From Calditrichaceae bacterium (GTDB lineage: Bacteria > Calditrichota > Calditrichia > Calditrichales > Calditrichaceae): a DNA stretch of 45,809 nt. The notes beneath the pieces were generated by a model that did not search any database, was not told the origin of the DNA, and was given only the letters and a program-made list of their open reading frames with translations. This document shows, piece by piece, positions 196 through 36,497 of the stretch. Each line of letters begins with the position of its first letter. Positions within the stretch are counted from its first letter, which is position 1. Location of the stretch: assembly GCA_016928315.1 (NCBI GenBank), contig JAFGKZ010000203.1, positions 1 through 45,809 on the forward strand, in the 5' to 3' direction. Position numbers and translations under genes: made by a program.

Positions 196-3081
196 TTACC
201 GAATAATGGCAAATTTTCCGATATGTTTATCTTTATCCGGTGTCTCGATAACATATACATAAACACCGAAAGCCAGCGCCTGATTGGAGCTGTTTACCAG
301 GTTGAATAATTCTTCACCAGTGTAATTATCATGTTTGATTGTATTAACTTTCTCGCCGCCAATTGAATAAATATCTATTGTACAGACCGGAGGCAGAAAC
401 ATGAATCGCACCTGATGTGAATTCTGTAAAAGTTCCCAGGCTGCCCCAACCAGATAAGGATTTGGCACAACGCGAATTTCCTTCAGGTTAACCTGATCCG
501 GATCGAAGCTAAATTGTCTAAACTGCAGAGTGTAGACATCGTCGCTGCGCAGACTGCGGAATGATTCAATCCTGATTACATCGCCTGTTTGCGGCGGCGT
601 GTTCTCGGTATCCTGAGCATAATTATTGATATTTACGCGATAGGGAAAGTCGGCAGGATATGCCGCCGGTAATAATTCACCTATTTCAGGATCTGCATAT
701 GGTTGACTTACGATATTGATGGCTTCACCTTCATCGAATACCTGATTACTATTAACATCCTGAATCTGGAAACAGATTTTAACTTCCTGGTCATGATCAG
801 TTATATCCCATACTTCAAAGGGCGCCTGAAAAACAGTCTGTGATGATGCCGGTAGTCCCCAGCCATATGCTAATGAGCCATTGTTCACAAATCTTATTTC
901 GTAATCATGCACACGGTTTTCCAGGGCTGCCTGAAAGCGGTCGGTTACTTCCACATACCATGACTTGCTGCTGTCCGGATTGGAAGAACCCATCACATTA
1001 AAACCAAATCCATCGCTTATAGATTTGAGTCCGCCCAGTTTGCGCTCACTGTCCACCGTTACCATAAAACCATCAATAACCGCATTGTCAATAGTATTTA
1101 AAGGCAAATCAGAAAGTAATGATGATGCACTGCCGGCGTTGTATATATCAAATCGATTGGCCGGATCACCTTTAAAACGAATTTCATAGGTATCTGTTGT
1201 CAGAATATTTTCATCAATGATTGAAATGTTTATTTCTCCCTTTCCGTTTCCGGCCGTGTGAAGCAATGACTCAACATCTGCATCTACTTTTCCGCTAAAA
1301 TTGGGACGCGGTGTGACCGTTACAAAATTTTTATCGGCATTACTGGTTCCCCGCGCTGATTCCAGAGAATATATAATAGAATCACCGCGATCATAAGCTA
1401 CAACCGTGTAAGCGTAGCTGATTCCATTTTTCACCGTCTTGTCTTCATACATATGACGGATACCGGTATTATCACCCAAATAAACGAATGGATTTCTGGA
1501 ATCCGCACCACTGATATCATTATCAATATCAAATTGCGCCAGGGGAAAATATCCAATGAGATTGCCCTTAGCATCGATAATTTCTTTTCCCCAGGTCTGT
1601 CCGTTATCCTGACTTCTGTAAATCCGATAGCCTTCGAAATCCGAGTCGCCGGTAAACACATCAACAGCCCGTTCTGCCTGATCATCCCAGTATAAAGTAA
1701 CTTTACCGTCACTGGGCACCACAGAAATAGCCGGAGCCGGTGGTGCGGCAGGCCCAACAAAATTGAAATTGTACATTTGAACAGCCTGATCAATCTGATC
1801 ATAAAAATCATCATCCGATTCATCTACGGCTACTACAATGGTAGATTTAACAACTTCTCCCGGTTCCAGGGTAAACGGACCCGTGGCTACGATAAATACA
1901 GCGTCAAAACCTTCGCTGATCAATGAGACGTCGTCAAAATTTTTATCCGCACCATGAAAGTACCGGTCCGAAAAATCTTTGATATCCGAGTCGGTTGGAT
2001 CGTTAGAAATGATCGGCCACAAAATATCATCCTCTGTGGGGCCGGCGTCATCGTAATAATGAAAGGTGGTTACTCCAATATCTTTAGGAGTCTCCAGTAC
2101 AGCCATTCCAAAAGAATAATATTCCGTTACTCCTTTACTGTTAGGTCGGGTCGCGCCATCAATATCACGCTGTAAAATGATATCGGGAATATCCGGATTA
2201 TCAAATTTCGGATCCGGAAGAATCAGAATTTCCTCACCATAGTCGCTGCAATCGGGATCCTGATAATAACCGACATAACAATTATCAATAGGCGTGCCGC
2301 TGGTATTGTGAATATAGAATTCATAAAACTGAAACTTATCCGCATAGGGACGACCATAACAGTAGGCCATCATTTCAACTTCCAGCCCAACCACATCGCC
2401 CTGCTGATTATTATCGTCTGTGAAAACAGCATACACATCCCGGTCTGAGGCAAATTCGCCTTCAATAAATTCATCTGTCACCGGATCACGACGGAAGTAT
2501 CCCGGCCAAAACGGGGCGCCTGTTTCATCTACCGGCCAGGTAATAGGCAAATCGCTGTGTGCCAAATAGGGTGTGGTCGGATTATCCGGCGGGTATTTTA
2601 AGGGCTCATGCGGATTCGGATCGGTTGAGGGATTATAATGCGTTAAACCGTATGAACCGTCTTTTGCCACCCAATCTTCGTTATCATTATCCGTCCAGCC
2701 TTCAATCACATTGCCATTATTATTATTCATACTGTTTTTGGGGATGGCAACAAAAATGGAAAAATCATCAATTAAGCCAGTAAAGTCTTTTCTCGGATAG
2801 CGAAAATCAAAAAAATACTGTGTCGGTGCATTCCCGACATCTTCATAGCGCGTATCGGTTATCATACCGTAATTCATGGTTAAATTTTGCAGCTGCCCTT
2901 TATCCATAACACCCACTGCCTCGTCAGCAAAACTACTTACTTTATGCAGAACCGGCGGATGATCGTGTGCGGCAATATCATCCACTTCATTATTTTGAGC
3001 TGACAGGTCAACAACAAAAATACTTAAAGGCAGAAGACAGAGAAAAATAATCAGTTGATTTAAATAAATTTGCTTCATCAT
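196..3081 (-). CDS. large secreted protein with C-terminal sorting-like module
   Basis: A protein of 961 residues with a signal peptide (hydrophobic run ending LSAQ) and no other membrane segment. Around residues 450-600 there is a fibronectin-III-like stretch (GKVTLYWDD... GYRIYRSQDNGQTW). The last about 95 residues (IRVVPNPYLVGAAW ... GVYVYVIETPDKDKHIGKFAIIR) match the beta-sandwich tail that FCB bacteria use as a type IX secretion signal or anchor. The reading frame can be extended to a TTG at 3096, but that TTG overlaps the GGAGG ribosome-binding site. The ATG at 3081, 8 nt after GGAGG, is therefore the better start; a second ATG follows at once. It begins 17 nt after the TonB receptor and is probably co-transcribed with it. 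The middle of the protein is unrecognised and its substrate is unknown. Confidence 0.75.
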   Translation of the reverse strand: MMKQIYLNQLIIFLCLLPLSIFVVDLSAQNNEVDDIAAHDHPPVLHKVSSFADEAVGVMDKGQLQNLTMNYGMITDTRYEDVGNAPTQYFFDFRYPRKDFTGLIDDFSIFVAIPKNSMNNNNGNVIEGWTDNDNEDWVAKDGSYGLTHYNPSTDPNPHEPLKYPPDNPTTPYLAHSDLPITWPVDETGAPFWPGYFRRDPVTDEFIEGEFASDRDVYAVFTDDNNQQGDVVGLEVEMMAYCYGRPYADKFQFYEFYIHNTSGTPIDNCYVGYYQDPDCSDYGEEILILPDPKFDNPDIPDIILQRDIDGATRPNSKGVTEYYSFGMAVLETPKDIGVTTFHYYDDAGPTEDDILWPIISNDPTDSDIKDFSDRYFHGADKNFDDVSLISEGFDAVFIVATGPFTLEPGEVVKSTIVVAVDESDDDFYDQIDQAVQMYNFNFVGPAAPPAPAISVVPSDGKVTLYWDDQAERAVDVFTGDSDFEGYRIYRSQDNGQTWGKEIIDAKGNLIGYFPLAQFDIDNDISGADSRNPFVYLGDNTGIRHMYEDKTVKNGISYAYTVVAYDRGDSIIYSLESARGTSNADKNFVTVTPRPNFSGKVDADVESLLHTAGNGKGEINISIIDENILTTDTYEIRFKGDPANRFDIYNAGSASSLLSDLPLNTIDNAVIDGFMVTVDSERKLGGLKSISDGFGFNVMGSSNPDSSKSWYVEVTDRFQAALENRVHDYEIRFVNNGSLAYGWGLPASSQTVFQAPFEVWDITDHDQEVKICFQIQDVNSNQVFDEGEAINIVSQPYADPEIGELLPAAYPADFPYRVNINNYAQDTENTPPQTGDVIRIESFRSLRSDDVYTLQFRQFSFDPDQVNLKEIRVVPNPYLVGAAWELLQNSHQVRFMFLPPVCTIDIYSIGGEKVNTIKHDNYTGEELFNLVNSSNQALAFGVYVYVIETPDKDKHIGKFAIIR

Positions 3082-3098
3082 AAATTTTTCCTCCAAAC

Positions 3099-7724: not shown

Positions 7725-9131
7725 TCATGTTTTAATTCCGTACCTTTTAATTTTTTTACTAAGGCCCTCTCTGGATTCGCCAACTTCATCAGCGAGCCTG
7801 CTGATATTTCCATTATTAGTTTTTAAATGGTGATTCAAATACAATGCTTCAAATTGTTCTATCAATTTTTGTTTGGCATTTTTTAAAGGTAATTTAATAA
7901 GGGAGGTTAATAAATCGTCATTTAATTTGGGTTGTATTGTATTATCAAAATTAAGGTCAGCTTTTTGTACTATCTCATGCGGACCGATAACATACATACT
8001 TTCCAGAAAATTTTTTAATTGCCGTACATTGCCCGGCCAGTTATAATCTTTTATGGCCTGAATTGTCTCCGGCGTAAATTTTAGTTTTCTGCTTTTTTGA
8101 GTTTCATATTTAGTGCAGTAATAATCGAATAAAGCAGGAATATCACTTTTTCGTTCTCTTAATGGCGGAATAAAAATATTTATTACATTTAATCGGTAAA
8201 ACAGATCCTCACGAAATTGTGAATGCTTAACCAGTTCCTTTAAGTCTCTGTTAGTAGCGGCAATTATGCGCACATCAGCCGTCCTGTAATCATCACTACC
8301 CACCGGAACAAATGTTTTGTCCTGCATAAATCGTAACAATTTTACCTGAAGTTCCAGAGGAAAATCACCAATTTCATCGAGAAAAACAGTCCCGCCTGAG
8401 GCTGATTCAAAAAAACCGCTATGTTTTTGCAGCGCATTTGTAAATGATCCTTTTTCATGCCCGAATAATTGACTTTCTAATAAGGTTGCAGGGATACTGG
8501 ATATATCAACAACTACGAACTTATTTTTAGAGCGAACAGGACTGGCATTATGAATTGAACGCGCTACCAATTCCTTACCTGTTCCGCTTTCTCCGGTTAT
8601 CAGGACGGTTGAGTCATTATCCCGGCCAATTCGGGCAATTAAATTTAATATATCGAGCATTGTCTGGCTCTCACCAATCAACGGATCGGATTCAACCAAA
8701 TTTATCGCATACTTACTCTGCAAATCATCAACACGTTCGGATAATCTGATATTTGACAGCCATAATTTTCTCGTATCGAGCAGCCGTTCAATTTTTATTA
8801 TGATTTCTTCCTGCGAAAAATCCTTAGTAATATAATCATCTGCTCCGGCTTTCATGGCTTCAACGGCGCTATTGACGGATCCGTAGGCAGTAATCATTAA
8901 TACCGGAGTTAACGGATATCGTTGTTTAATAAATCGAACAAGTTCCAAACCATTTTCCGCTGAAGGAAGATGTAAATCACTGATTATAAGATCAAATTCA
9001 TTCATTTCAATCATTTTTTTTGCCTGTTGATAACTATCTGCTTCTTTAACTTCCCGGACGGCGGATTTCAATATAAAGTACAGACCTTTTCTGGCGGTTC
9101 GTTCATCATCGACAATTAATATTTTTTTCAT
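7725..9131 (-). CDS. NtrC-family sigma-54-dependent response regulator
   Basis: A protein of 468 residues with the complete three-part layout. The receiver domain covers about 1-120, with acidic pocket D8/D9, phospho-acceptor D52, T81 and K103. The AAA+ domain covers about 145-380, with Walker A GESGTGKE at 180-187, Walker B GTVFLDE at 247-253 and WPGNVRQLKN at 365-374. A Fis-type helix-turn-helix occupies about 435-468. The sigma-54-contacting loop reads GSFTNA (228-233) instead of GAFTGA, a notable departure. The gene starts one base after the sensor-kinase stop, with AAGGA inside the kinase end, so the two are translationally coupled and almost certainly a cognate pair. Likely targets lie in the envelope genes immediately downstream. 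Confidence 0.93.
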   Translation of the reverse strand: MKKILIVDDERTARKGLYFILKSAVREVKEADSYQQAKKMIEMNEFDLIISDLHLPSAENGLELVRFIKQRYPLTPVLMITAYGSVNSAVEAMKAGADDYITKDFSQEEIIIKIERLLDTRKLWLSNIRLSERVDDLQSKYAINLVESDPLIGESQTMLDILNLIARIGRDNDSTVLITGESGTGKELVARSIHNASPVRSKNKFVVVDISSIPATLLESQLFGHEKGSFTNALQKHSGFFESASGGTVFLDEIGDFPLELQVKLLRFMQDKTFVPVGSDDYRTADVRIIAATNRDLKELVKHSQFREDLFYRLNVINIFIPPLRERKSDIPALFDYYCTKYETQKSRKLKFTPETIQAIKDYNWPGNVRQLKNFLESMYVIGPHEIVQKADLNFDNTIQPKLNDDLLTSLIKLPLKNAKQKLIEQFEALYLNHHLKTNNGNISRLADEVGESREGLSKKIKRYGIKT

Positions 9132-9132
9132 T

Positions 9133-12100
9133 TTATCCTTCTAAAGTAACTATAGGTAAACCAATTGTAAAAATACTGCCTTTGTTTATCTCACTTTCTA
9201 CATTAATACAGCCGTTATGATTTTTAATTATATTTTGTGTTATGGCTAAACCGAGCCCTCTGCCAGTTCCCCTCGTTGAATAAAATATATTAAAAATTTC
9301 ATTAATTTGTTCATCGGCAATTCCTGTACCAAAATCTTTTATCTGAATTTGCAGTTGCTGATCATGCGCCGCAGTCGTTACATTTATTTCTACAGTTTTA
9401 TCAGAATTTGCAGCTTCAATAGCATTTTGAATAATATTTTCCAGAGCAAAGCCTAACTGTTCACGATCGCCTTTAATAGTAATATCCTCTTTTACCTTAT
9501 AATTAATTTCTATTTTTTTTGATATGGACAAGTAACGTTGAACAATATGCTCTAACCAGGGAATTACTTTTATATTATCGTTCAGAGGCGTACGATTGGC
9601 TATAAAATCGAATGATTTCATTAATTGATTTTTTAAGTTGATAATACCGTTGTGCAGTTCGCTGATATATTCAAATCTTGAATCTGTCTTTGGTATTTCC
9701 CGATATAACAATTCAATTATCATGCGTAATCCATCGATAGGATTTTTTAGATTATGAATTAGTCCGCCGGCAAACGTACCGATAGCGCTTATTTTTTCCT
9801 GTTCTCTAAGATTCTGCATAATACGAATATTATCAAGGGCAATGGCTAACTGCAGGCACAAATATCTCATGTCTTCCCAGCCGTCCATCTGGTTATTTAA
9901 CGCATCAGGCATTAGAATAATTATACCTAAAAATTGCCGTTTTCTAACCAGATTAAAAGCATGTACATTTTTAGTATTTATATGTTGAAAAATGTTAAAA
10001 CACAGCGCACCGGGTAATAATTTTATATCCTGCGAGACTGTTTTTACCGTATCCAAAGACAACATAATTCGAACCGGAGCTTCATATTCACTAAAGCCCT
10101 GGATTGATTTACGGTATAGATGATTTCCAAACTGGTTGTAAACATAGATGGCTAATTTCTTATGCGGTTTAATAATTTCGAGAGATTCTTTAAAAATTTG
10201 CAGCGCTTCATCATCATTATAAGTACGCGAAAGATTTAATCCGGCTTCTTTCAATTTTTCCTGCTGTTGACGCTGGATATAGTTGCTTATTCTAATCGGT
10301 TCATTTATACCGACGAGTACGAGCAGCACGAATCCAATGATGGTAAAAGGCAGAAAATGAAAAATGAATCCACTGTCACGCAAAATATATGTTATGGATA
10401 AATAAAAAAGAAGAAGAAGGATTACATAAAAAACCGTATGGGAAACGCGCCAACGATAACGGAATTCTATAAAACGTGCACTTAGAAATATGATGAGCGT
10501 AAAAATTATAAATTTTAAAATTTCTAATCCAATATAAGGAATATGCATAAATTGTAGAAATCGTCTGCCAGAAAACAAAAGAATTTTTAATAAATTTGAA
10601 GATTGCTGAATTTTAATATTCGAACCAGCCTGAATATTATATATCCATTTTTCATCACCATTCAAGAATCGTACTTGAATATCATAGTATTGATTCTGAT
10701 CAACTGTAAATTGCGGTCTGATTTCACTCTGGGAAAACAAACCGGTACTAGGTAATAATTCATAATATCCGGATAAGGTTTTTAATGTGTCGTTGTTCTG
10801 ATTTTTCCATAACCAGATTTTTGCGCCCAATGCCTCGCGCGTATCTTGTACTCCCTCGATAGAAACCGTTATACCAGATAAGGATTCAATTTGATTTTGA
10901 AGCAGGGATGACCAATAATCAGCATTGCCAACGACCAAATCGAAAGTGCCATTACCCTCAATATCTAATTTTGCCAAACCGGTATTATAGCCGCTTAGAT
11001 AACCGGATTTTGAATATATTAGCTTTGAAGCTTTTTCTTCAAAAAATTTATTGTCCCGGTTCAAATACAGCAAATCCGGACCATAACGCGTAATAAAAAC
11101 ATCGTTTGTTCCGTTCATATCAAAATCTGCAATGGCAGCGCTGTAACTTCTTCCGCCTTGTTTAATATTCCAATGACTGGATTCATTTAAATACTTATTT
11201 TTATCTTTATGGTAAAACAAAACGGCATCATTTCCATCTTCAGCACACAGAAATATATCCGTATAGCCATCTCCATTAATATCGCCGACTGAGATTGAAT
11301 TAATAAAATCAGAATAGTCGCCGATAAAAAATGAAGTGTCTGCAAAATGCCAACGATCTCTGCCATCGTTCAATAATCCCATTGGTGGCTGATGATGGAA
11401 TACTACAATCACATCCTGCAAATTATTATTGTCTAAGTCAAGAACTTTACAGGCACGAATGCCGGTTTTTTTAACATTATCAGGCAATTCTAAATATTTA
11501 CGGAAGGTGTTATATTTGGTATTTATAAATATCAATAATCCCTCATTTTCATCTGCCATTATGAGATCCGGATAACCGTCAATGTTAATATCAGCTATTG
11601 CACCGTCAATGAGTTCCAGATTATTTGATAATCCGCATAAATCAGTCTCATCCGAAAAAACAGCTTTACCATTATTTACAAAATATCTTGTTGTCTGCCT
11701 TTTACCAGCCAGCAGAAGATCCGTATCTCCGTCCCGGTCAAAATCGGCGGCTAATGAGCCATATTCATATTTTTGCTTACCAACCCTTGTTTCGATATTA
11801 CCTCCCGTTCCGGACTCGATTACATAATCGAGATAATATCCTTTGCCCTGATTTATCAATAAGTGATTCAGGCTGCGATAACAGGTAAGATAAATATCTG
11901 TTTTTTCATCATTATTAAAATCTGCCGCTGTAATTCCCCAAACATCATCAATCCGGTTGATCAAGTAATCGCTGCCTAAATGAACCTGGTCTGCAAAAAT
12001 CAGAGCATTATCCAGACCGGTTTGTTTTGAGGTTTCTGAAAAATGAAGAATTGTCCCCCTGGCTCCAACAGCAAAACCTTTGCCGGGATTTATCATTTCA

Positions 12101-12996
12101 ATATCATGAAGATCTACCTGAGGATTGAAAGGAAATTTATCCCAGTATTCGCCATTATATTGCAGAATTGTACCGTTGGTACCTACGGCAAATCCATAAT
12201 CAGCCCTAAGCATATCAACCGCCCAGAGATTTTCTATAGTCTCGGCTAATTCCTGTTCCAGATGTCCATCCTTATAATGAAAGATGACTCCATTATAACC
12301 AACGAACCATCCTTCATCCTCCGAAATAAAATCCATATCACGTAATACCACATCAATATCATTTTTAATCAGATTCCATTTTCCCGGACTTCCGATCAAA
12401 ATAACTCCTTTATCACCGCAAATAGCAATTTTATTATTACTGATATATTGTACCTCTCTGAAATCCAAACTGACCGGCAGGTTAATCGAATTCCACCTCC
12501 CATCTTCAAAAAAACAGGCGCCTCCATCACCCACCGCTATTCCCTGGTTGTTTTTATTAAAATCCAGTGCACGTATTTTTATCGGGAGCTGGTTTAATTT
12601 ATAACTCTGCGATAAAGGATTAAAATTAAATAAACTATATATACTTTTTTCAACATGATTAATAGCTAACCAGCCATTTTTTTTATCCGGAACCCGAAGC
12701 GTGTAAATATCTCCGATTTCCGCCACCGATTTGGTTAAAGAGTCCGAAAGAGATTTATAATATTGCTGTATTGTTGTAATTGAATCATAATTAATCCAAC
12801 TGTCCCCGTTATATTTCAAAATCATTCCATCATACGAAACTGTAAAGCCAAGCGAGTCGGAAAGCATATCCAAACGAGCCAGATTTTGTCTGGTGGGTGA
12901 TGGCATCAGATTCCAGGTTTGGGCAATTACCCATCCGTTTAACAGGATAAAAATTAAAAGATATTGAGGTAATCTATTCTCTTTATTAGAAGTCAT
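9133..12996 (-). CDS. sensor histidine kinase with double beta-propeller sensor region
   Basis: A protein of 1287 residues. A signal-like hydrophobic segment (about 11-26) precedes a YCF48-like propeller (about 28-323, repeated 'GfaVGxxGtIlhy' units). Seven FG-GAP/VCBS-type calcium loops follow near 359, 419, 469, 520, 572, 624 and 678 (DFDRDGDTD, DINIDGYPD, DINGDGYTD and variants), then an ASPIC/UnbV-like stretch (about 709-795). Membrane segments lie at about 826-842, 852-871 and 878-897. A GAF-like region (about 920-1060) leads to the kinase core: phospho-acceptor H1081 in HNLKNP, N box ENIIQNAIEAA, G1 DFGTGI and G2 GRGLGLA. The extracytoplasmic 800 residues should sense a ligand or bind a partner; the ligand is unknown. 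The coupled downstream NtrC-type gene is the expected phosphotransfer partner. Confidence 0.9.
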   Translation of the reverse strand: MTSNKENRLPQYLLIFILLNGWVIAQTWNLMPSPTRQNLARLDMLSDSLGFTVSYDGMILKYNGDSWINYDSITTIQQYYKSLSDSLTKSVAEIGDIYTLRVPDKKNGWLAINHVEKSIYSLFNFNPLSQSYKLNQLPIKIRALDFNKNNQGIAVGDGGACFFEDGRWNSINLPVSLDFREVQYISNNKIAICGDKGVILIGSPGKWNLIKNDIDVVLRDMDFISEDEGWFVGYNGVIFHYKDGHLEQELAETIENLWAVDMLRADYGFAVGTNGTILQYNGEYWDKFPFNPQVDLHDIEMINPGKGFAVGARGTILHFSETSKQTGLDNALIFADQVHLGSDYLINRIDDVWGITAADFNNDEKTDIYLTCYRSLNHLLINQGKGYYLDYVIESGTGGNIETRVGKQKYEYGSLAADFDRDGDTDLLLAGKRQTTRYFVNNGKAVFSDETDLCGLSNNLELIDGAIADINIDGYPDLIMADENEGLLIFINTKYNTFRKYLELPDNVKKTGIRACKVLDLDNNNLQDVIVVFHHQPPMGLLNDGRDRWHFADTSFFIGDYSDFINSISVGDINGDGYTDIFLCAEDGNDAVLFYHKDKNKYLNESSHWNIKQGGRSYSAAIADFDMNGTNDVFITRYGPDLLYLNRDNKFFEEKASKLIYSKSGYLSGYNTGLAKLDIEGNGTFDLVVGNADYWSSLLQNQIESLSGITVSIEGVQDTREALGAKIWLWKNQNNDTLKTLSGYYELLPSTGLFSQSEIRPQFTVDQNQYYDIQVRFLNGDEKWIYNIQAGSNIKIQQSSNLLKILLFSGRRFLQFMHIPYIGLEILKFIIFTLIIFLSARFIEFRYRWRVSHTVFYVILLLLFYLSITYILRDSGFIFHFLPFTIIGFVLLVLVGINEPIRISNYIQRQQQEKLKEAGLNLSRTYNDDEALQIFKESLEIIKPHKKLAIYVYNQFGNHLYRKSIQGFSEYEAPVRIMLSLDTVKTVSQDIKLLPGALCFNIFQHINTKNVHAFNLVRKRQFLGIIILMPDALNNQMDGWEDMRYLCLQLAIALDNIRIMQNLREQEKISAIGTFAGGLIHNLKNPIDGLRMIIELLYREIPKTDSRFEYISELHNGIINLKNQLMKSFDFIANRTPLNDNIKVIPWLEHIVQRYLSISKKIEINYKVKEDITIKGDREQLGFALENIIQNAIEAANSDKTVEINVTTAAHDQQLQIQIKDFGTGIADEQINEIFNIFYSTRGTGRGLGLAITQNIIKNHNGCINVESEINKGSIFTIGLPIVTLEG

Positions 12997-24212: not shown

Positions 24213-24992
24213 TTAGACTCTTCGTCCTGAAGCGTCGCGGTGTTTCATGCCTAGTTCCGTTATTTGAGCAATATCTTCTTTTTTCAGCACAGGGCCTTCA
24301 ACACACAAACGTATCCCCGAACCATCCAGACAACATTGACCGCAGATACCGATGCCGCATTTCATATAACGTTCCATACAAAACTCATACGGTATATTCA
24401 AAGGATCGATGATTTCTTTAACTTTAACGAACATGATTTCCGGACCCGCAGCATAAATATATTCGATTTTTTCATTTTCAATAATTTCAGTCAAATCATC
24501 AGTGACCAGTCCCTTTTTACCCTTTGAACCATCGTCTGTGGTAAAATAGGTCTTGCCGGCTTTTTCAAAATCCGATGCAAAGATGATTTCATAAGCCACT
24601 GCCGCGCCGAGCAGATTAACAAAGCGGTATCCTTTGGCGGTAAGTTCCTGAGCCAGGATACGCAGCGGGGCGATACCGATGCCGCCGCCGATTAACAGCG
24701 CATTGTCATGTAAGGTAAATCCGTGTCCGAACGATCCGCGCAGGCCCAGACGGTCCCCGATTTTTTTGATCATCAGGTCTTTGGAAAAGGGACCGTACGC
24801 CTTTACCGATACTTCAATCATATCATCGATAACCGCGGAAACCGAGTAGGGTTTTTCATCGACGCCCGGCGACCAGACATTGACAAATTCACCGGCACGA
24901 ATTTCAAAATCCTTGTCAAAATAAAAAGATTTCACGCCGGGACCATGCTCATGTATTTTCCGGATAGGATAGGTTTTCATTAAATCACTCAT
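24213..24992 (-). CDS. pyrK: dihydroorotate dehydrogenase electron-transfer subunit
   Basis: A protein of 259 residues. The FAD-binding loop reads KPYSVSA (usually RxYS; here Lys replaces Arg), the nucleotide-binding glycine motif is LIGGGIGIAPL (100-110), and the [2Fe-2S] cysteines are C212-x4-C217-x2-C220-x9-C230. It passes electrons from the PyrD FMN to NAD+ in class 1B dihydroorotate dehydrogenase. The ATG at 24992 overlaps the pyrD stop (ATGAGTGA, 8 nt), so translation is coupled; a second ATG four codons later is also possible. The frame extends further upstream inside pyrD, but that part is not family-like. It is the last gene of the nucleotide cluster. Confidence 0.93.
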   Translation of the reverse strand: MSDLMKTYPIRKIHEHGPGVKSFYFDKDFEIRAGEFVNVWSPGVDEKPYSVSAVIDDMIEVSVKAYGPFSKDLMIKKIGDRLGLRGSFGHGFTLHDNALLIGGGIGIAPLRILAQELTAKGYRFVNLLGAAVAYEIIFASDFEKAGKTYFTTDDGSKGKKGLVTDDLTEIIENEKIEYIYAAGPEIMFVKVKEIIDPLNIPYEFCMERYMKCGIGICGQCCLDGSGIRLCVEGPVLKKEDIAQITELGMKHRDASGRRV

Positions 24993-25899
24993 GCGCAGCG
25001 CCCCGGATCTGTTCAATGGATTTGTAACCCTTTTCTAGCAAATATTTTTCAATGCCTTCATTCAGTTTTCGGAAAACCTCTATACCCTCATAATACACCG
25101 CCGTTCCCACGCCGATTGCAGTCGATCCGGCCAGTATCATCTGGATGGCGTCGGAAGGTTTTGTCACACCGCCTGTTCCGATGATAGGTATTTTAACATT
25201 TTTATAAACTTCATAAACAGATTTAACGGCTACCGGCAGAATTGCAGGTCCTGATATCCCGCCGGTCAAATTGGATAAGACCGGTCTCTGCACATCAATA
25301 TCAATCAACATGCCCGGGCCTACGGTATTTATTGCTGTAATGGCATCGGCTCCATTTTCTTCACACACTTTTGCAATAACGCCAATACCCGGCCCATGCG
25401 GTCCAAGTTTAATCGCTACCGGAATGTTACCGGCATGCTCTTTAACAATTTGTACAATTTTCGCCGTATCCGGACAGCTATCACCAAAAGGTTGTCCAAA
25501 TTCCGAGTGCACATTCGGGCAGGATATGTTTACTTCAATCATATCCGGTTCCGCTTCGCATGTCCGTCGGGTAACTTCGCCAAACTCTTCAATGCTGCGC
25601 CCAAAAATGGATGCAATAATTGGCGTGTCACATTCTTCTTTGTAAAGTTGAATTTCTTTAATCATCTCATCCAGGCCGGGATTGGATAATCCAACAGCAT
25701 TCAACATGCCGTGTTCAAACGGTACAATACTTGGATTTTTGTGACCTGTGCGCCAGTCTTTATTAAACGATTTACTGGTCACAGCGCCTGCTCCAAACTC
25801 GATTACCCGTTTCATTGAAGAGGCAGTAAGTCCTAAAATACCAGAGGCTAAAATTAGCGGCGATTTTAAATAAAAATTTAAAAGTCTTGTTTTAATCAT
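24985..25899 (-). CDS. pyrD: dihydroorotate dehydrogenase, class 1B catalytic subunit
   Basis: A protein of 304 residues with an FMN-binding TIM barrel. The active-site base is cysteine (C127 in IEVNISCPN), which marks class 1 rather than the serine-using quinone-linked class 2. KSFNKDWR and NAVGLSNPG bind the orotate and FMN regions, and the C-terminal IPIIGTGGV holds the FMN phosphate. The directly overlapping pyrK makes this the NAD+-dependent 1B type. It oxidises dihydroorotate to orotate in the cytoplasm. It lies 36 nt after pyrI. Confidence 0.96.
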   Translation of the reverse strand: MIKTRLLNFYLKSPLILASGILGLTASSMKRVIEFGAGAVTSKSFNKDWRTGHKNPSIVPFEHGMLNAVGLSNPGLDEMIKEIQLYKEECDTPIIASIFGRSIEEFGEVTRRTCEAEPDMIEVNISCPNVHSEFGQPFGDSCPDTAKIVQIVKEHAGNIPVAIKLGPHGPGIGVIAKVCEENGADAITAINTVGPGMLIDIDVQRPVLSNLTGGISGPAILPVAVKSVYEVYKNVKIPIIGTGGVTKPSDAIQMILAGSTAIGVGTAVYYEGIEVFRKLNEGIEKYLLEKGYKSIEQIRGAAHE

Positions 25900-25935: not shown

Positions 25936-26412
25936 TCAGGGAATAACTACATCCAGTTCATCCAAAGCAAAAATTCGTTCGCAGTAGTAACACTTGACCT
26001 GTTTAGCGCTATCATCAATGGCAGTAAACAGAGTCCCAATATGAGCTTCTGAGTTGGTAATGCAGTTAGGATTTTTACATTCCAGTAAATTTTTGATTTC
26101 CTTTGGTGGATGCACAACCACCTTGCTATGAACTTTATAATCTTTTACCGCTTTCACGGTAACACCTGGAACCATAATCGATATATGTTGAATAATCTCG
26201 GGCGCCAGATAGTCCATCTGTAGTTTTATTAAATCCTTTTTCCCAAGTTTTTTACTTGTATAGTTGAGTCCCAAGGTAACAGGCACATCCTTCATTTCTT
26301 CATACTGGAAAATGATGTCCAGTATTTTAGGCCCCTGCCCTGCCGGGATATGGTCAATTACTATGCCCAGTTCAATTTTAGGAATTAGAAGCATTTCATT
26401 ATTATTACTCAT
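25936..26412 (-). CDS. pyrI: aspartate carbamoyltransferase regulatory subunit
   Basis: A protein of 158 residues with the two PyrI domains: an N-terminal allosteric nucleotide-binding domain and a C-terminal zinc domain with C122-x4-C127 and C151-x2-C154. The zinc domain holds the regulatory chain against PyrB. Its presence implies a holoenzyme regulated by nucleotides such as CTP and ATP. The ATG overlaps the pyrB stop (ATGA). The regulatory chain is a little longer than the common enterobacterial form but shows no defect. Confidence 0.95.
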   Translation of the reverse strand: MSNNNEMLLIPKIELGIVIDHIPAGQGPKILDIIFQYEEMKDVPVTLGLNYTSKKLGKKDLIKLQMDYLAPEIIQHISIMVPGVTVKAVKDYKVHSKVVVHPPKEIKNLLECKNPNCITNSEAHIGTLFTAIDDSAKQVKCYYCERIFALDELDVVIP

Positions 26413-27329
26413 AGCTGCACTCCCAAATGTTTTAGCAGAATAGCCTGACGTATAATGACTCCGTTTTTCATCTGAGGAAAGTAACCGGCATGTTTGGTTT
26501 TATCTACATCATAGGCAATTTCTCTGACGCGCGGCAGGGGATGCAGAACGCGGGCATGCTCCTTAGCTTCCTTTAGCATGGAAGCGGTCAGCACATAAGA
26601 ATCTTTAACTTTTTCATACTCCACTAAATCCGGAAATCGTTCACGCTGAATACGTGTCATATATAAAACGTCACAATTCTTAATAGCCTCTTCAATGTCA
26701 TCCGTTTCTTTAAATTGATATTTTCCCGGCTCATCATTGGACATAAAATATTTTTGTAACCGCAAAGACTCCGGAGCCACCAGGGTGAAATCGGTTACAT
26801 TTAATTTCATCAGTGCACGGATAAGTGAATGTACTGTGCGGGAATATTTTAAATCACCAATGAAGGCCATTTTAATGCCTTCAATTTTTCCGAGGTCTTT
26901 CTGAATTGTGTATAAATCCAGCAAAGTCTGCGAGGGATGCTGATTGGAACCATCACCGGCATTAAGAACAGGCAGATGACTTTCTTTCGCCGCCAATCGA
27001 GCTGTTCCCTCTCCCGGATGGCGAATAACGAGGATATCAGAATAATTTTCGACCGTATGAATGGTATCCGTAAAAGACTCGCCTTTTGATACCGAAGTGG
27101 CTGATTGTTCTGCAAATCCAATTACGCTTCCTCCGAGTTGATGCATAGCGGATTCAAAACTAAGCCGTGTGCGTGTACTTGGTTCGAAAAACAAGGTTGC
27201 CATAATCCTGCCGGGTAAAAACTGAACCCGCTCATTCAGCGGCATCGCTTCCACTTTTACCGCGGCTGTCAGGTAATCCGTAATTTCCTGAATGGATAAA
27301 TCCTCCATTGAAATTAAATCTTTTTTCAT
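26409..27329 (-). CDS. pyrB: aspartate carbamoyltransferase catalytic subunit
   Basis: A protein of 306 residues. The carbamoyl-phosphate loop is STRTR (51-55) in FFEPSTRTRLSFE, followed by HPSQTLLDLYTI and the C-terminal LHPLPR aspartate-binding motif. It condenses carbamoyl phosphate with aspartate. AAGGA 6 nt before the ATG supports the start, and the gene is coupled to pyrI by an ATGA overlap. It begins 34 nt after the pyrF-receiver fusion. No carbamoyl-phosphate synthase genes (carA/carB) are in the window, so they must lie elsewhere. Confidence 0.97.
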   Translation of the reverse strand: MKKDLISMEDLSIQEITDYLTAAVKVEAMPLNERVQFLPGRIMATLFFEPSTRTRLSFESAMHQLGGSVIGFAEQSATSVSKGESFTDTIHTVENYSDILVIRHPGEGTARLAAKESHLPVLNAGDGSNQHPSQTLLDLYTIQKDLGKIEGIKMAFIGDLKYSRTVHSLIRALMKLNVTDFTLVAPESLRLQKYFMSNDEPGKYQFKETDDIEEAIKNCDVLYMTRIQRERFPDLVEYEKVKDSYVLTASMLKEAKEHARVLHPLPRVREIAYDVDKTKHAGYFPQMKNGVIIRQAILLKHLGVQL

Positions 27330-27363: not shown

Positions 27364-28407
27364 TTAAATAAATTTTGAAAAAGCCATTTGTAATTTATCC
27401 GCAGAGAACGGTTTTATAACAAAGCTTTTTGCGCCTGATTTAATAGCCTCAATGCCTGTGGCTTTATCCGCAAGTGATGTAACTGCAATAATCTTTACAT
27501 CGCGGTCTATTTTTGCCATCTCCCTAATTACGCTTAATCCATCCAGCCTTGGCATAACGATATCCATAGTAACTATATCCGGCCGTTTCCTTCTAAAAAT
27601 TTCTAAAGCTGTTTCACCGTTCGAAGCCTCTCCGACAATTTCCAGATGGTAGTCATCCACATGACGCTTAATAATTCTGCGAATGATGGAAGAATCATCT
27701 ACAATCATCAACTTTTTGGTGGCGATTTTTTTTCTTACCAATTCGATATATTCAACCGGATTATCAGCTTCCAGTAAAGACCGGCCGATGATTAGGTAAT
27801 GGGTTTTTAAAAATCCAAATTCCGCCTCATCCCCACCCTGCTTGCCAAATCCGGGTGAATAAAAAACACATTTATCATCCAGTTTAGCCTGCTCATACAA
27901 ATTGTAAGTTTCATCCGGCTTGGTCAGAGGAACCACAAACGAATGCACGCCCATACTGTGGCTCATGCTGTATATCTTGCTGATGGATTCATCTGTGATG
28001 AATCCACCTTCTGAGACGACAAACTTGGGATGCGTCATAATACCGCCGACAATCACCTTTAGATGCTGATCCTGTAAGGCCTTCACCCAGCCTTCCAAAG
28101 TAGCCGGACCCGCCTGAGGGAAAAGGATTACTTCATCCATCCCGCTGTCTTTCATCACTTTGGCAAATAATTTTCCGGTATCGGGAATATCCGTAGCGGC
28201 TTTTTGATGGTCGTAAATAATGGGTTTATCAGAAATGGATTTGATCGTATCGACTATTTTGGGAAGTCCATAGGTCAGGCCAAGAGTAAATCCAACCTTG
28301 TAGCCGTAAACAAAATCCACATCTGCAATTTTCTTAATTAATTTTTTCAGCTGATTTAAATCCGTGATATCGAGAGCCGGAATTATTTTACGTATTTTAC
28401 CCTTCAT
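27364..28407 (-). CDS. pyrF: orotidine-5'-phosphate decarboxylase fused to CheY-like receiver
   Basis: A protein of 347 residues with two domains. Residues 1-227 are a decarboxylase-type TIM barrel: lysine in DVDFVYGYKVG, catalytic stretch YDHQKAATDIPDTG (65-78), and phosphate motifs YSPGFGKQGGD and IIGRSLLEADNP. Residues 230-347 are a complete receiver domain: acidic pair D237/D238, phospho-acceptor D282 (VTMDIVMP), T310 and K332 (IKPF). The catalytic stretch has D66-x2-K69-x3-D73, wider than the classical D-x-K-x2-D, as in variant archaeal-like members. The ATG at 28407 has AGGGGA upstream and overlaps the pyrE stop by 11 nt. The longer open frame upstream runs inside pyrE and is ignored. 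The fusion suggests that phosphorylation may control UMP synthesis; this is inference. Confidence 0.9.
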   Translation of the reverse strand: MKGKIRKIIPALDITDLNQLKKLIKKIADVDFVYGYKVGFTLGLTYGLPKIVDTIKSISDKPIIYDHQKAATDIPDTGKLFAKVMKDSGMDEVILFPQAGPATLEGWVKALQDQHLKVIVGGIMTHPKFVVSEGGFITDESISKIYSMSHSMGVHSFVVPLTKPDETYNLYEQAKLDDKCVFYSPGFGKQGGDEAEFGFLKTHYLIIGRSLLEADNPVEYIELVRKKIATKKLMIVDDSSIIRRIIKRHVDDYHLEIVGEASNGETALEIFRRKRPDIVTMDIVMPRLDGLSVIREMAKIDRDVKIIAVTSLADKATGIEAIKSGAKSFVIKPFSADKLQMAFSKFI

Positions 28408-29023
28408 AGGTCCCCTCGTAAAAATCATTGATTGTTTTTGCATTGGGATCCCCCTGGCGTTCCAGGTACCCAATGATATTAGGCAGTGAAACAATCGAAC
28501 TAAAAGGATAATCGCCTAATCCCAAATCCACTCCTTTTGCCCGCCGGTCAACCGTAACAATGATACCGGAAATTGTAACATCAAAGGTAGATTCAATCAT
28601 TTTAATAGCGTCTATCTTGGTACCGCCCGTTGTCAGCACATCATCTACCACGATGATACGATCGCCTTTTTGGGGCAGTTTACCGACAAACATACCGGCC
28701 TCGCCATGCGTCTTAGTCTCTTTTCTATTATAGCAGGTGTAAATTGGCTTTTTAAATATCTGCTGCCAGGCTATAGCGGTTGCAGAAACCAAAGAAATGC
28801 CTTTGTAGGGCGGACCGAATAAAATATCAACAAAACCAAAATCATTTTTTATTTTCCCGGCAAAAACCTGACCAACAAATTGAAGCGCTTCGCCGGAACA
28901 GATATCGCCAAGATTAATAAAAAATGGTGAGGTTCCCCCGGATTTAAGTGTAAAATTACCAAAACGCAAGGCTTTTTCTCTGATTAAAAATGCAATAAAA
29001 TCATCCTGACTGATTGTGATCAA
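28397..29023 (-). CDS. pyrE: orotate phosphoribosyltransferase
   Basis: A protein of 208 residues. The PRPP-binding loop VVDDVLTTGGTK (125-136) and the N-terminal orotate region FTLKSGGTSPFFINLG are clear. It joins orotate to PRPP to make OMP. The start is TTG at 29023, one base after the pyrC stop, with GGA 8 nt upstream; no in-frame ATG precedes the conserved part. The end overlaps the pyrF start, so pyrC, pyrE and pyrF are translated as a coupled block. Confidence 0.95.
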   Translation of the reverse strand: MITISQDDFIAFLIREKALRFGNFTLKSGGTSPFFINLGDICSGEALQFVGQVFAGKIKNDFGFVDILFGPPYKGISLVSATAIAWQQIFKKPIYTCYNRKETKTHGEAGMFVGKLPQKGDRIIVVDDVLTTGGTKIDAIKMIESTFDVTISGIIVTVDRRAKGVDLGLGDYPFSSIVSLPNIIGYLERQGDPNAKTINDFYEGTYEG

Positions 29024-29024
29024 T

Positions 29025-30293
29025 TTAGATTTCCATTCCTTTTATTTGGGTGAAAAATTTTTTATTATCATATTTAATAACACCGTTTACCATTGTTACG
29101 GCTGCCTGCCATTTAAAATTAAAATTTTTATACAGATTCCGGCCGGCCTTGGTCTGCATCTGTTCATTTTGAGTGCCGTCCGTATTTTTTATAAATACCA
29201 GATCGGCAAAATTCCCTGGTGTAATACCATCGCGACTTTTTATCGAGTAACATTCGGATGCACGGGTACAAATCAATTTATGAAACTGTTTCCAACTTAA
29301 CAATCCCTCATCGATAAAATGTAATAATTGCGGCATCAGCCATTCGATGGCCGCAATTCCCGAAGGCGGATTAGCGCTTTCCTTTTCTGATTTGGAATGC
29401 GGCGCATGATCGCTGCCGATAAAATCGATAATACCGGAAGCGACGGCTTCCCGTAACCGATTCTGATCGTCTTTGGTTCGGATTGGTGGATTGACCTGGA
29501 ATGCGGTGCCTTTTTTGATATAATCATCCTGCGTAAAATAAAGATAATGCGGACAGGTTTCTCCCCACACATCAAAACCTACTTTTTTCATTCGGGTGAT
29601 CCACTCGACTTCATCTGCGGTATTCATGTGGCAGATAACTACCCGTGGACGTTTATTTTCCGGAATATCTTTCAGGATTGATTCAATTTTTTGCAGAGCA
29701 CCGGTTATGGCCTTACGCGGACGATTCTCATGATGCAGCGGGCTGCGCTCCGGGCTCATATCAAATTCACTGTCATCTTCTGCGTGAATCGATACGATTG
29801 GGTATTTTATGAACAGCTTTTTCAGAATTTCGGGTGAATTTATTGACGGCAGGGCTGAGGATTTGGCCATATAAATTTTTGCGGATTTAATCTGATCATT
29901 CAACTCTTCGTTATTATGCGGCGTAGTGTGCAGCATTACTCCCCAGTTGATCAGGCTCTTTTTCCTGAATAATTTTTTCTTTTGCTGAACACGTTTTCCG
30001 GTGGAACAGGGTGGTTTGTTATTAGGCATATCGATGATTGTGGTAACGCCTCCGCGCAGGGCTGCCTTGGATCCGCTTACAATGCCCTCTTTGTATAGCT
30101 GACCCGGTTCGCGAAAGTGGACATGGGGATCAATGGCGCCGGGAACGATAAGATAATCTGCTGCATCAAATATTTCTTCATTTATTGATGAGATTGACGG
30201 AGAAAGTTCAGCAATTTTTCCATTTCTTATCAGAATTTCAGATTGAACAAATTCGCCGTCACTATTTAACCACTTTGCATTTTTAATTAACAT
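29025..30293 (-). CDS. pyrC: dihydroorotase
   Basis: A protein of 422 residues of the amidohydrolase superfamily. Metal ligands H57 and H59 lie in DPHVHFREP, the lysine of KIYMAKSS is at the carboxylated-lysine position, and later ligands lie in VSIHAEDD, VICHMN and the aspartate of IGSDHAPHS. The full set indicates an active enzyme rather than the inactive partner type found with some aspartate transcarbamoylases. It closes carbamoyl aspartate to dihydroorotate. It begins 33 nt after purF, with a weak ribosome-binding site, and marks the change from purine to pyrimidine genes in the run. Confidence 0.95.
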   Translation of the reverse strand: MLIKNAKWLNSDGEFVQSEILIRNGKIAELSPSISSINEEIFDAADYLIVPGAIDPHVHFREPGQLYKEGIVSGSKAALRGGVTTIIDMPNNKPPCSTGKRVQQKKKLFRKKSLINWGVMLHTTPHNNEELNDQIKSAKIYMAKSSALPSINSPEILKKLFIKYPIVSIHAEDDSEFDMSPERSPLHHENRPRKAITGALQKIESILKDIPENKRPRVVICHMNTADEVEWITRMKKVGFDVWGETCPHYLYFTQDDYIKKGTAFQVNPPIRTKDDQNRLREAVASGIIDFIGSDHAPHSKSEKESANPPSGIAAIEWLMPQLLHFIDEGLLSWKQFHKLICTRASECYSIKSRDGITPGNFADLVFIKNTDGTQNEQMQTKAGRNLYKNFNFKWQAAVTMVNGVIKYDNKKFFTQIKGMEI

Positions 30294-33755: not shown

Positions 33756-35113
33756 TAATTAATTATTGTTTTTGCTTCTTTGATCACCCGCTCCGTTATA
33801 TTCTTTGCCTCACCCATGTAATCCATTACACTTAACGACTTTAACTCGTTTTTCACATGATTTTCAATATCCAGTTGATCAATAAATTTACCCAGATCGT
33901 CTTTAGATATATCCTGCCCGCGGGTCAATTCCTTAAGCAAATTGTAGGGATTTTCCAGATCTTCGCGCCGGAGAATCGTTTGAATCGGCTCGGCCAGCAA
34001 CTCCGGATGTGCGTTTAATTCATGTTCACAGCGCACTTTATTGATGCTCAGTTTTTTCAATCCTTTTATGGTTTCCTGAATAGCCAGATAGCTGTGTGCC
34101 AGCGCTACACCTACATTTCGTGTTACGGTACTATCTGATAAATCTCGCTGCAAACGGGAATTACCAAGTTTGTCAATCAGACCATTTAGTAATGCAGTGG
34201 ATACCTGCATATTGCCTTCACTGTTTTCAAAATTAATCGGATTTACTTTATGTGGCATGGTGGATGAACCCACGGCCCCTTTATCCGCGCTGATGGTCAG
34301 ATAACCAAGTGTTAAATACAACCAAATATCGCGATCCATATCAAGAATGATGTTATTAATCCGCTTAGTAATTGAAAAATATTCTGCCCAGGTATCATGA
34401 TCTTCAATTTGAGTGGTTACTGGATTATTTTTTAAACCATATTTCTGCATGAATTTTTCGGAAAAGGCAATCCAGTTATATTTTGGAAAGGCTGCTTTAA
34501 GGGCTGAATAATTTCCTGTTGCGCCGTTTAATTTACCTAAAAAGGTAAAGGATTTCAGTTTTTCGAATTGACGTAACAATCGGATTAGAAATACTGCCAT
34601 TTCCTTTCCACCGGTGGAAGGCGAAGCCATTTGTCCGTGAGTTCGTGCAGGAAATGGGACATCTTTCCAGTTTGCAGCATGATCTACAAGATTTTTTAAA
34701 ACAGTTTCAATTTGAGGAAGCTGTTCTTTTTCCAGATAATCTTTAAATAAAAAGGTATAAGCCAGATTGTTGACATCCTCGGAAGTCAATCCAAAGTGAA
34801 TCATATTGGGGTGGCTCAATCCCAGTTTTTCCTGAAGGAAAATCTCACAGGATTTAACATCATGATTGGTCGTCTTTTCAATTTCCTTGATACGCTGATA
34901 ATCTATATCTGAAAAATTATTCTGATAATATTGAATCTTTTCAATCTCATTTCCGGCGAATTTCTTAAATAAACCGCTTTCATCCAGGGCTAGCAGAAAT
35001 CGCAACTCCACCAATACCCGGGAGCGCATGAGGGCAAATTCGGAAAAGTAATTTCCCAAATGCGAAAGACGATCAGCATAACGTCCGTCAAGCGGTGAGA
35101 TTTCTTTAAACAT
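33755..35113 (-). CDS. purB: adenylosuccinate lyase
   Basis: A protein of 452 residues of the fumarase/argininosuccinase fold. The signature loop is SSTMPHKVNPINFENSEGN; THGQMASPS and the N-terminal PLDGRYADR mark the PurB branch with the Escherichia-type layout. It acts twice: it cleaves SAICAR to AICAR and adenylosuccinate to AMP. The ATG at 35113 lies inside the end of purCE (overlap ATGTTTAA, 8 nt) with AGAGGTG upstream; a longer frame start at 35143 is less likely. Confidence 0.95.
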   Translation of the reverse strand: MFKEISPLDGRYADRLSHLGNYFSEFALMRSRVLVELRFLLALDESGLFKKFAGNEIEKIQYYQNNFSDIDYQRIKEIEKTTNHDVKSCEIFLQEKLGLSHPNMIHFGLTSEDVNNLAYTFLFKDYLEKEQLPQIETVLKNLVDHAANWKDVPFPARTHGQMASPSTGGKEMAVFLIRLLRQFEKLKSFTFLGKLNGATGNYSALKAAFPKYNWIAFSEKFMQKYGLKNNPVTTQIEDHDTWAEYFSITKRINNIILDMDRDIWLYLTLGYLTISADKGAVGSSTMPHKVNPINFENSEGNMQVSTALLNGLIDKLGNSRLQRDLSDSTVTRNVGVALAHSYLAIQETIKGLKKLSINKVRCEHELNAHPELLAEPIQTILRREDLENPYNLLKELTRGQDISKDDLGKFIDQLDIENHVKNELKSLSVMDYMGEAKNITERVIKEAKTIIN

Positions 35114-36497
35114 TTTCACCTCTGATGGTTCTATCCGCTTCAATTAAATCGGCTTTCATTTTCTGAATTTCTTTCATGAAGATATTTTTCAACCGTGACA
35201 AATTAAGACTGCGCAGGGCAATCTGGGCGGCATTCTTTGGATCAACCACCGTAGCAGCCGGTGTATTGGACGGCATCATCAGAGATGAATTAATATTCAC
35301 CATCATATCATCCTTATCACTGAACGGCGGACAACTGAAAACCGGAATTGTCAAATTGGCTGCCAGCGCCCCACCGAGGCCATTTGAGCGGCCGGCCACA
35401 GCAATCACCGCGCCAGGCTCAACGGAATTATTGTAGTCTTCAATAACTTTTGGAATTTCCTCACCATTTTTATGCGCCGATACAACACGCATATCCACTT
35501 TGACATCGTACTTCTCTATGATGTCTTTCATTTTATTGCAGTGCTCGATATCCGATGGCGAACCCATAATAACAGCAATAAATCCATCTTTAATGATTTT
35601 GTGTTTAACCAGATTCGAATGAACACGAGCCAGCACATTATCTTCAATTTCCGGTAAAGATTCACCGGTAATCATACCATAGATATCCCGGTAACGCCTG
35701 GTGGTCTCCTGAACCACATCATCAGGCAAAGAATCCGGATAGACATCATTCTTTTTATTTTTAAGCAAGTAACTGCGAACATATTCTTTATCCAACTGTT
35801 CTGCATTAACCGGATCATTTTCATAATTTTCTTTTGACCAGAAGCGGGATGAATCCGGCGTATGGATTTCATCAATTAGTACCAGCTTATTATCAATCAG
35901 GCCAAATTCATATTTTGTATCTACAAGGATCAATCCCCGTTCTTCAAGCATATTGCTGCCGCGTTCAAACAGTGCCAACGAGACTTTTTCCATAGCTTTA
36001 TAAATATTGGCAGCCACCCAGCCTTCATCCACCAGTTCCTTTGGAGTGATTTCGCGGTCGCTGTCCTCTTTGGTTGTCGGCGTAACGATCGGCTTGGTAA
36101 AAGCCTGATTTTTTTTCATCCCTTCCGGAATGGTTACGCCCGAAACTTTGCGTTTACCCTTTTCATATCCGCGCCAGGCTGAGCCTGTCAGATAGCCACG
36201 AACAACCATTTCAACCCGTATAGGGCTGGCTTCTTTAACCAGTGAAATATTGGGATCAATCAGTTTAATGAAATGGTTGTCAATAATATCCCTGGTATTT
36301 TCAAACCAGAATGCCGCCAATTGATTGAGCACAGCGCCCTTGCCGGGAACAGCCGTTTTAAGCACAAAATCAAAACTGGATATGCGATCGGTGGCAACAA
36401 TCATCCGGGTTTGATCATCTATGCGAAAACTCTCCCGCACTTTACCTGAATGAATTTTCTTTAACTGAGGTGTTTTAAAATTGACCAAACAATTCAT
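35106..36497 (-). CDS. purC-purE: SAICAR synthase fused to class II AIR carboxylase (PAICS-like)
   Basis: A protein of 463 residues. Residues 1-303 are SAICAR synthase of the yeast Ade1/bacterial long type (HSGKVRESF, ATDRISSFDF, VRGYLTGSAWRGY, VDTKYEFGL). Residues 305-463 are a PurE domain with MGSPSD, SAHK, AGRSNGLGG, SCPP and a C-terminal LIEADRTIRG. AGRSN and SCPP are characteristic of class II PurE (animals, Treponema), which carboxylates AIR directly with CO2, instead of the AGAGGAAHLPG of class I. No purK is found in the cluster, which fits. Human PAICS has the same domain order but a different SAICAR-synthase subtype, so the fusion looks independent. AAAGGAG lies 6 nt before the ATG. 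Confidence 0.92.
   Translation of the reverse strand: MNCLVNFKTPQLKKIHSGKVRESFRIDDQTRMIVATDRISSFDFVLKTAVPGKGAVLNQLAAFWFENTRDIIDNHFIKLIDPNISLVKEASPIRVEMVVRGYLTGSAWRGYEKGKRKVSGVTIPEGMKKNQAFTKPIVTPTTKEDSDREITPKELVDEGWVAANIYKAMEKVSLALFERGSNMLEERGLILVDTKYEFGLIDNKLVLIDEIHTPDSSRFWSKENYENDPVNAEQLDKEYVRSYLLKNKKNDVYPDSLPDDVVQETTRRYRDIYGMITGESLPEIEDNVLARVHSNLVKHKIIKDGFIAVIMGSPSDIEHCNKMKDIIEKYDVKVDMRVVSAHKNGEEIPKVIEDYNNSVEPGAVIAVAGRSNGLGGALAANLTIPVFSCPPFSDKDDMMVNINSSLMMPSNTPAATVVDPKNAAQIALRSLNLSRLKNIFMKEIQKMKADLIEADRTIRGENV

Follow-up and report, generated by a model that had tools for sequence, protein, structure and literature searches.

An OMP decarboxylase that looks to be genuinely fused to a CheY-type receiver domain in a single Calditrichaceae lineage

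Does one polypeptide in a member of the Calditrichaceae join OMP decarboxylase (PyrF) to a CheY-type receiver, and might two-component signalling act on UMP synthesis through it? De novo pyrimidine synthesis is usually known to be controlled allosterically and through transcription or attenuation. The locus lies in a stretch of 45,809 nucleotides (contig JAFGKZ010000203.1 of GCA_016928315.1; hereafter the window), which belongs to one draft metagenome assembly of 291 contigs and 87% completeness. PyrF-REC looks like a genuine fusion that is private to one lineage.

The pyrF-REC gene (28407-27364, minus strand) translates as a single open frame of 347 residues with one terminal stop. The Pfam OMPdecase profile matches residues 7-221 (61.8 bits, cut-off 27), and Response_reg matches residues 234-342 (95.7 bits, cut-off 30.2); neither match is close to chance, and in having a receiver and an enzyme on one polypeptide the protein is built like a response regulator with enzymatic output. 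The ORF listing offers an upstream TTG at 28494 as an alternative start, but ATG at 28407 was taken as the start because it agrees with a strong Shine-Dalgarno sequence (GAGGGGACCT-ATG) and with the relatives. A sequence-only reading of the locus had described an uninterrupted frame encoding an OMP decarboxylase and a complete receiver behind their own ribosome-binding site; these features are all found here, on a strand (minus) that it had not named.

By profile matches, the gene order is pyrC-pyrE-(pyrF-REC)-pyrB-pyrI-pyrD-pyrK, all on the minus strand. Upstream of the fusion gene are a dihydroorotase gene (29025-30293; Amidohydro_1, named pyrC from its operon context) and pyrE (28397-29023; TIGR00336, 118 bits, cut-off 106.8), whose last 11 bases are also the first 11 of the fusion gene. 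Downstream, pyrB (26409-27329) starts 34 bases past the fusion stop with a Shine-Dalgarno sequence of its own, followed by the operon genes pyrI (ATCase regulatory chain; 25936-26412), pyrD (dihydroorotate dehydrogenase; 24985-25899), and pyrK (DHODH electron-transfer subunit; 24213-25016), found by profile search. Elsewhere in the window, a SAICAR synthetase is fused to an AIR carboxylase (35106-36497; PF01259 and PF00731), a fusion known from animal PAICS. At 7725-12996, an NtrC-type regulator stands beside a 1287-aa protein with FG-GAP repeats and HATPase_c, and the two are likely to form a two-component pair. A 966-aa frame without a Pfam match (196-3096) adjoins a TonB-dependent receptor.

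Residues 1-229 (27721-28407, minus strand) constitute an OMP decarboxylase domain according to Pfam, an AlphaFold2 model, and structure comparison. The model is confident over these residues (mostly pLDDT >90) and has the OMPDC barrel fold; its C-terminal helix (residues 217-229) extends up to the fusion junction. Against solved archaeal OMP decarboxylases (M. thermoautotrophicus 3qmr and M. jannaschii 4luj) it gives TM-scores of 0.87-0.90 (target length), with a common TIM barrel at ~25% identity and with Lys and Asp-Lys-Asp as candidate counterparts of their catalytic residues; it differs from them in the DHQKAATDIP motif and in carrying a C-terminal receiver. The candidate catalytic residues K37, D66, K69, and D73, of which the last three fall in the motif YDHQKAATDIP, are nearly invariant in a PyrF subfamily that occurs in Calditrichaceae, DPANN archaea, Patescibacteria, and a few other MAGs. 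The subfamily motif, YDHQK[AG]x[TN]DIP (window 28180-28216; loci L002-L057), is two residues longer than the classic DxKxxDIP, and H67 and Q68 are likewise nearly invariant. The PyrF half misses the cut-off of the NCBIfam equivalog PRK13813 (86 bits vs. 208), which denies it the equivalog name only, not membership of the superfamily.

A profile search of this 87%-complete draft genome returned one PF00215 protein, which is the fusion protein; likewise, PyrF is the only full-length PF00215 protein in each of the 14 family genomes that have any. A second PyrF that might free the fused copy for another role was sought in the genome, and none was found. As the sole PF00215 protein of the genome, encoded within the pyr operon, the fusion protein is predicted to be an active decarboxylase. 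In the PyrF tree, its closest relative is the PyrF of G001, which is unfused, and the PyrF half shows no acceleration, its branch being 0.29 vs. 0.38 in this sister.

Residues 231-347 (27364-27717, minus strand) are a CheY-type receiver domain by Pfam. All phosphotransfer residues are kept, at the positions given by the sequence-only reading: the acidic pair D237/D238, the putative phospho-acceptor D282, T310, and K332. The fused receiver is thus probably competent for phosphorylation, judging from this residue set. The AlphaFold2 model is not confident past residue 230, and hence for the receiver half and the orientation of the two domains; its alignment held no suitable receiver rows, and one window receiver row was misaligned. 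The closest relative is a free 123-aa CheY of the same genome (G000:C131; 72% amino acid identity), to which the fused receiver is sister with 100% ultrafast bootstrap. CheY relatives in other genera of the family reach at most 57% identity to the fused receiver, and several show 60-67% to the free copy. Free CheY-type regulators of the family (G000:C131, G001:C198, and G003:C268) have the same phosphotransfer residues, with identity to the fused receiver lower for the latter two; they are stand-alone proteins, encoded beside CheX and kinase-like genes where these were read (C131 and C268), whereas the fused copy has no translation start of its own. DNA homology between the fused and free copies runs from 27715 to 27360, that is, from codon 231 to just past the stop, and so covers the coding region and a few bases. 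Free cheY begins AAGGAGGATGC-ATG-AGT; the corresponding codon of the fused copy is AAA, and neither a start codon nor a Shine-Dalgarno sequence is present there. The receiver is evidently a duplicate of the free cheY of the genome that has since lost its start codon and ribosome-binding site. No relative of either the PyrF half or the receiver half was found among the viral contigs searched.

In the receiver tree, the branch of the fused copy measures 0.50 and is ~16 times longer than that of the free copy (0.03), which is compatible with relaxed constraint. Differences between fused and free cheY fall 24/13/62 across the three codon positions over 110 codons (chi-square p = 2e-9 vs. equal), a signal that pools the synonymous changes of both paralogue branches; dN is ~0.16, and dS is saturated. 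With caution because of this pooling, we infer from the codon pattern that purifying selection has acted on the receiver during much of its history since the duplication.

The two domains meet almost without a linker, and the junction (27709-27734) contains an A8 tract (about 27726-27733) followed by TC GCC ACC AAA AAG. A one-base error in this tract might have joined a neighboring pyrF and a separate cheY, and indels of -2 to +2 were therefore placed in it. With one A removed, PyrF stops at 232 aa, as long as its orthologues, and its stop codon overlaps a start codon (TGATG). Translation of a detached receiver, however, could begin only at a TTG or ATG within beta strand 1, which puts its start six to seven residues beyond that of free cheY and leaves it without a Shine-Dalgarno sequence. 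If the assembly was built from short reads, moreover, an A8 tract would not usually trouble it. We regard such an error as improbable. An assembly chimera of two genomic places, for which the fragmentation of the draft into 291 contigs might speak, is rejected as hardly credible, because the receiver lies between pyr genes and because free cheY, its sole further match in the genome, is 71% identical at the DNA level and thus too different for a collapsed repeat. The position in the middle of the pyr operon had already been held against a chimera in the sequence-only reading, and that argument holds. The fusion and the origin of its receiver are, in our judgment, very probably genuine.

The fusion was sought in the family, in the phylum (40 genomes), and in 58 genomes outside the phylum, and no second case was found. 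Twelve family genomes, all of other genera and including that of the PyrF sister G001, are informative in having a readable pyrF 3' end, and none of them (0/12) shares the fusion; G010, whose pyrF is cut off by the contig end, and G011, whose assembly has no pyrF, were left out of the count. In all 12, pyrF is stand-alone, with an open frame of 227-254 codons, and the C-termini differ in length and sequence. The pyrF-pyrB spacer, where measurable, spans 42-268 bases in nine family genomes and is longer in two that have another small gene there: a 23S_rRNA_IVP family gene in G005 (L003:1107-1457) and a GIY-YIG gene in G013 (L013:966-1265). Since the spacer in relatives takes up small genes, the landing of a cheY copy there fits the pattern.

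Across the phylum sample, no other PyrF appears to be fused to a receiver. The frames of other families (251-303 aa) leave too little room for one beside a PyrF domain, and the long frames (474-523 aa) of f2, a sister family in the same order, are PyrE-PyrF in the one example checked (L093). This UMP synthase type of fusion resembles the window protein in joining PyrF to another domain within the same bacterial order, but its partner is a pathway neighbor rather than a signalling domain. OMP decarboxylase thus varies by family in the Calditrichota (G000-G039), between the DHQKA type, PyrE-PyrF, and the 251-303-aa frames, which suggests gene replacement. The prospect of related genomes sharing the PyrF-receiver architecture, raised in the earlier reading, is contradicted by the informative relatives. 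Its view of a phosphorylatable domain on a housekeeping enzyme is supported at sequence level for this protein, given the complete motif, the receiver origin, and the evidence against a simple chimera, and the control by a histidine kinase that it suggested is compatible with the sequence. The distribution marks the fusion as derived and private, not as part of an established regulatory system, and does not demonstrate an artefact. As no relative has the fusion, nothing shows that the arrangement has been kept over long times.

What, then, might the receiver do? The genome encodes at least two CheA-like kinases (C21 and C276) that are of CheA type (Hpt plus HATPase) and have the Hpt histidine and N-box motifs; no kinase gene adjoins the fusion gene. 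Free cheY (L058; G000:C131:9000-18000) has as neighbors a CheX gene and the genes of two kinase-like proteins. The Hpt histidine is gone from both the larger (1332 aa; Reg_prop/Y_Y_Y/GAF) and the smaller (499 aa) of these; the smaller one includes an ATPase-like region, from which the N-box asparagine and the glycine motifs are also lost. Both look like pseudokinases, and they are unlikely to be phosphoryl donors because of these losses. The family also includes a 907-aa protein (L059; G003:C268, 3468-6191) that joins a ROK-family domain to PAS, Hpt, and HATPase_c, and so is another metabolic-type domain combined with two-component parts.

The explanation that we favor, tentatively and at somewhat less than an even chance when taken as a whole, is that an in-frame cheY duplicate tunes UMP synthesis through CheA-type phosphorylation at D282. 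The duplicate of free cheY would have inserted into the pyrF-pyrB spacer after the split from the closest sampled relative and become an in-frame C-terminal extension of the one OMP decarboxylase found in the genome. The product would be a decarboxylase with a phosphorylation-competent receiver directly on the last PyrF helix. CheA-type kinases of the genome may then phosphorylate D282, and the phosphorylation-dependent alpha4-beta5-alpha5 face of the receiver may alter how the protein self-associates or how its last PyrF helix packs, by which UMP synthesis would be tuned. Because the receiver sits on the last barrel helix with almost no linker, phosphorylation could change self-association or strain the helix; the lack of a regulatory linker also counts against this explanation. 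The sequence itself shows the fused frame, the source of the receiver, the sole copy of PyrF, the intact phosphotransfer residues, the purifying codon pattern, and the lack of the fusion in relatives; phosphorylation, the kinase responsible, and an influence on the decarboxylase are steps that we infer. That the receiver controls PyrF activity, as the architecture suggests, is plausible but less likely than not, and a phosphorelay acting directly on the final step of UMP synthesis, from a CheA-type kinase through the built-in receiver to a switch in activity or assembly, is somewhat less likely again.

Two other accounts accept the fusion as real, and we consider each of them rather improbable. 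PyrF may be unregulated and serve as a stable, abundant dimer that carries a receiver with a CheY-like role of its own, for example as a phosphate sink or as a dimeric competitor of free CheY for kinases or the CheX phosphatase. The retention of free cheY with its adjoining CheX-type phosphatase gene is in keeping with this, as are the intact phosphotransfer residues and the normal rate of the PyrF half, which gives no sign of co-adaptation. From residue 244 on, however, 32 receiver positions have changed, three of them from acidic to arginine, and the kinase and phosphatase contacts may therefore not be kept. Alternatively, the cheY duplicate may have been fused by readthrough in a near-neutral accident tolerated by a permissive PyrF C-terminus, leaving a receiver that is drifting and has no present function. 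Restriction to a single lineage, the fast receiver branch, the small genes in the spacer of relatives, and the variable PyrF C-termini all agree with such an accident. Yet the frame is open and every active-site residue is kept at saturated synonymous divergence, the fused/free differences are concentrated at third codon positions, and simulated random substitution to the same divergence leaves the frame free of stops in only ~3.5% of runs.

A class of receivers attached to standard metabolic enzymes, narrow in phyletic range, has been described, with KaiC-REC, glycosyltransferase-REC, thioredoxin reductase-REC, and pyruvate phosphate dikinase-REC as examples (PMC5847659). PyrF-REC resembles these response regulators in joining receiver and enzyme on one polypeptide with a narrow distribution; in contrast to the class as presented there, its enzyme is an OMP decarboxylase, its receiver follows at the C-terminus with hardly any linker, and it has been found in one genome only. 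The pairing of PyrF with a receiver does not appear among these receiver-enzyme examples (PMC5847659), nor was it found in the open-access papers searched, a set that lacks many journals. The sequence-only reading had called the arrangement unfamiliar; this applies to the particular pair, for which no report was found, but not to fusions of receivers with metabolic enzymes as such, at least as that source describes them.

As far as could be found, phosphorelay control of OMP decarboxylase would be a form of pyrimidine regulation without earlier description. If the receiver does control PyrF, de novo pyrimidine synthesis in this organism would come under the direct influence of two-component signalling. 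Even without such control, the locus offers an unusually readable snapshot of the birth of a receiver-enzyme fusion: one genome, read beside its relatives, reveals the sister copy of the donor, the place where the duplicate landed, the loss of its start codon, and the unequal divergence of the two copies.
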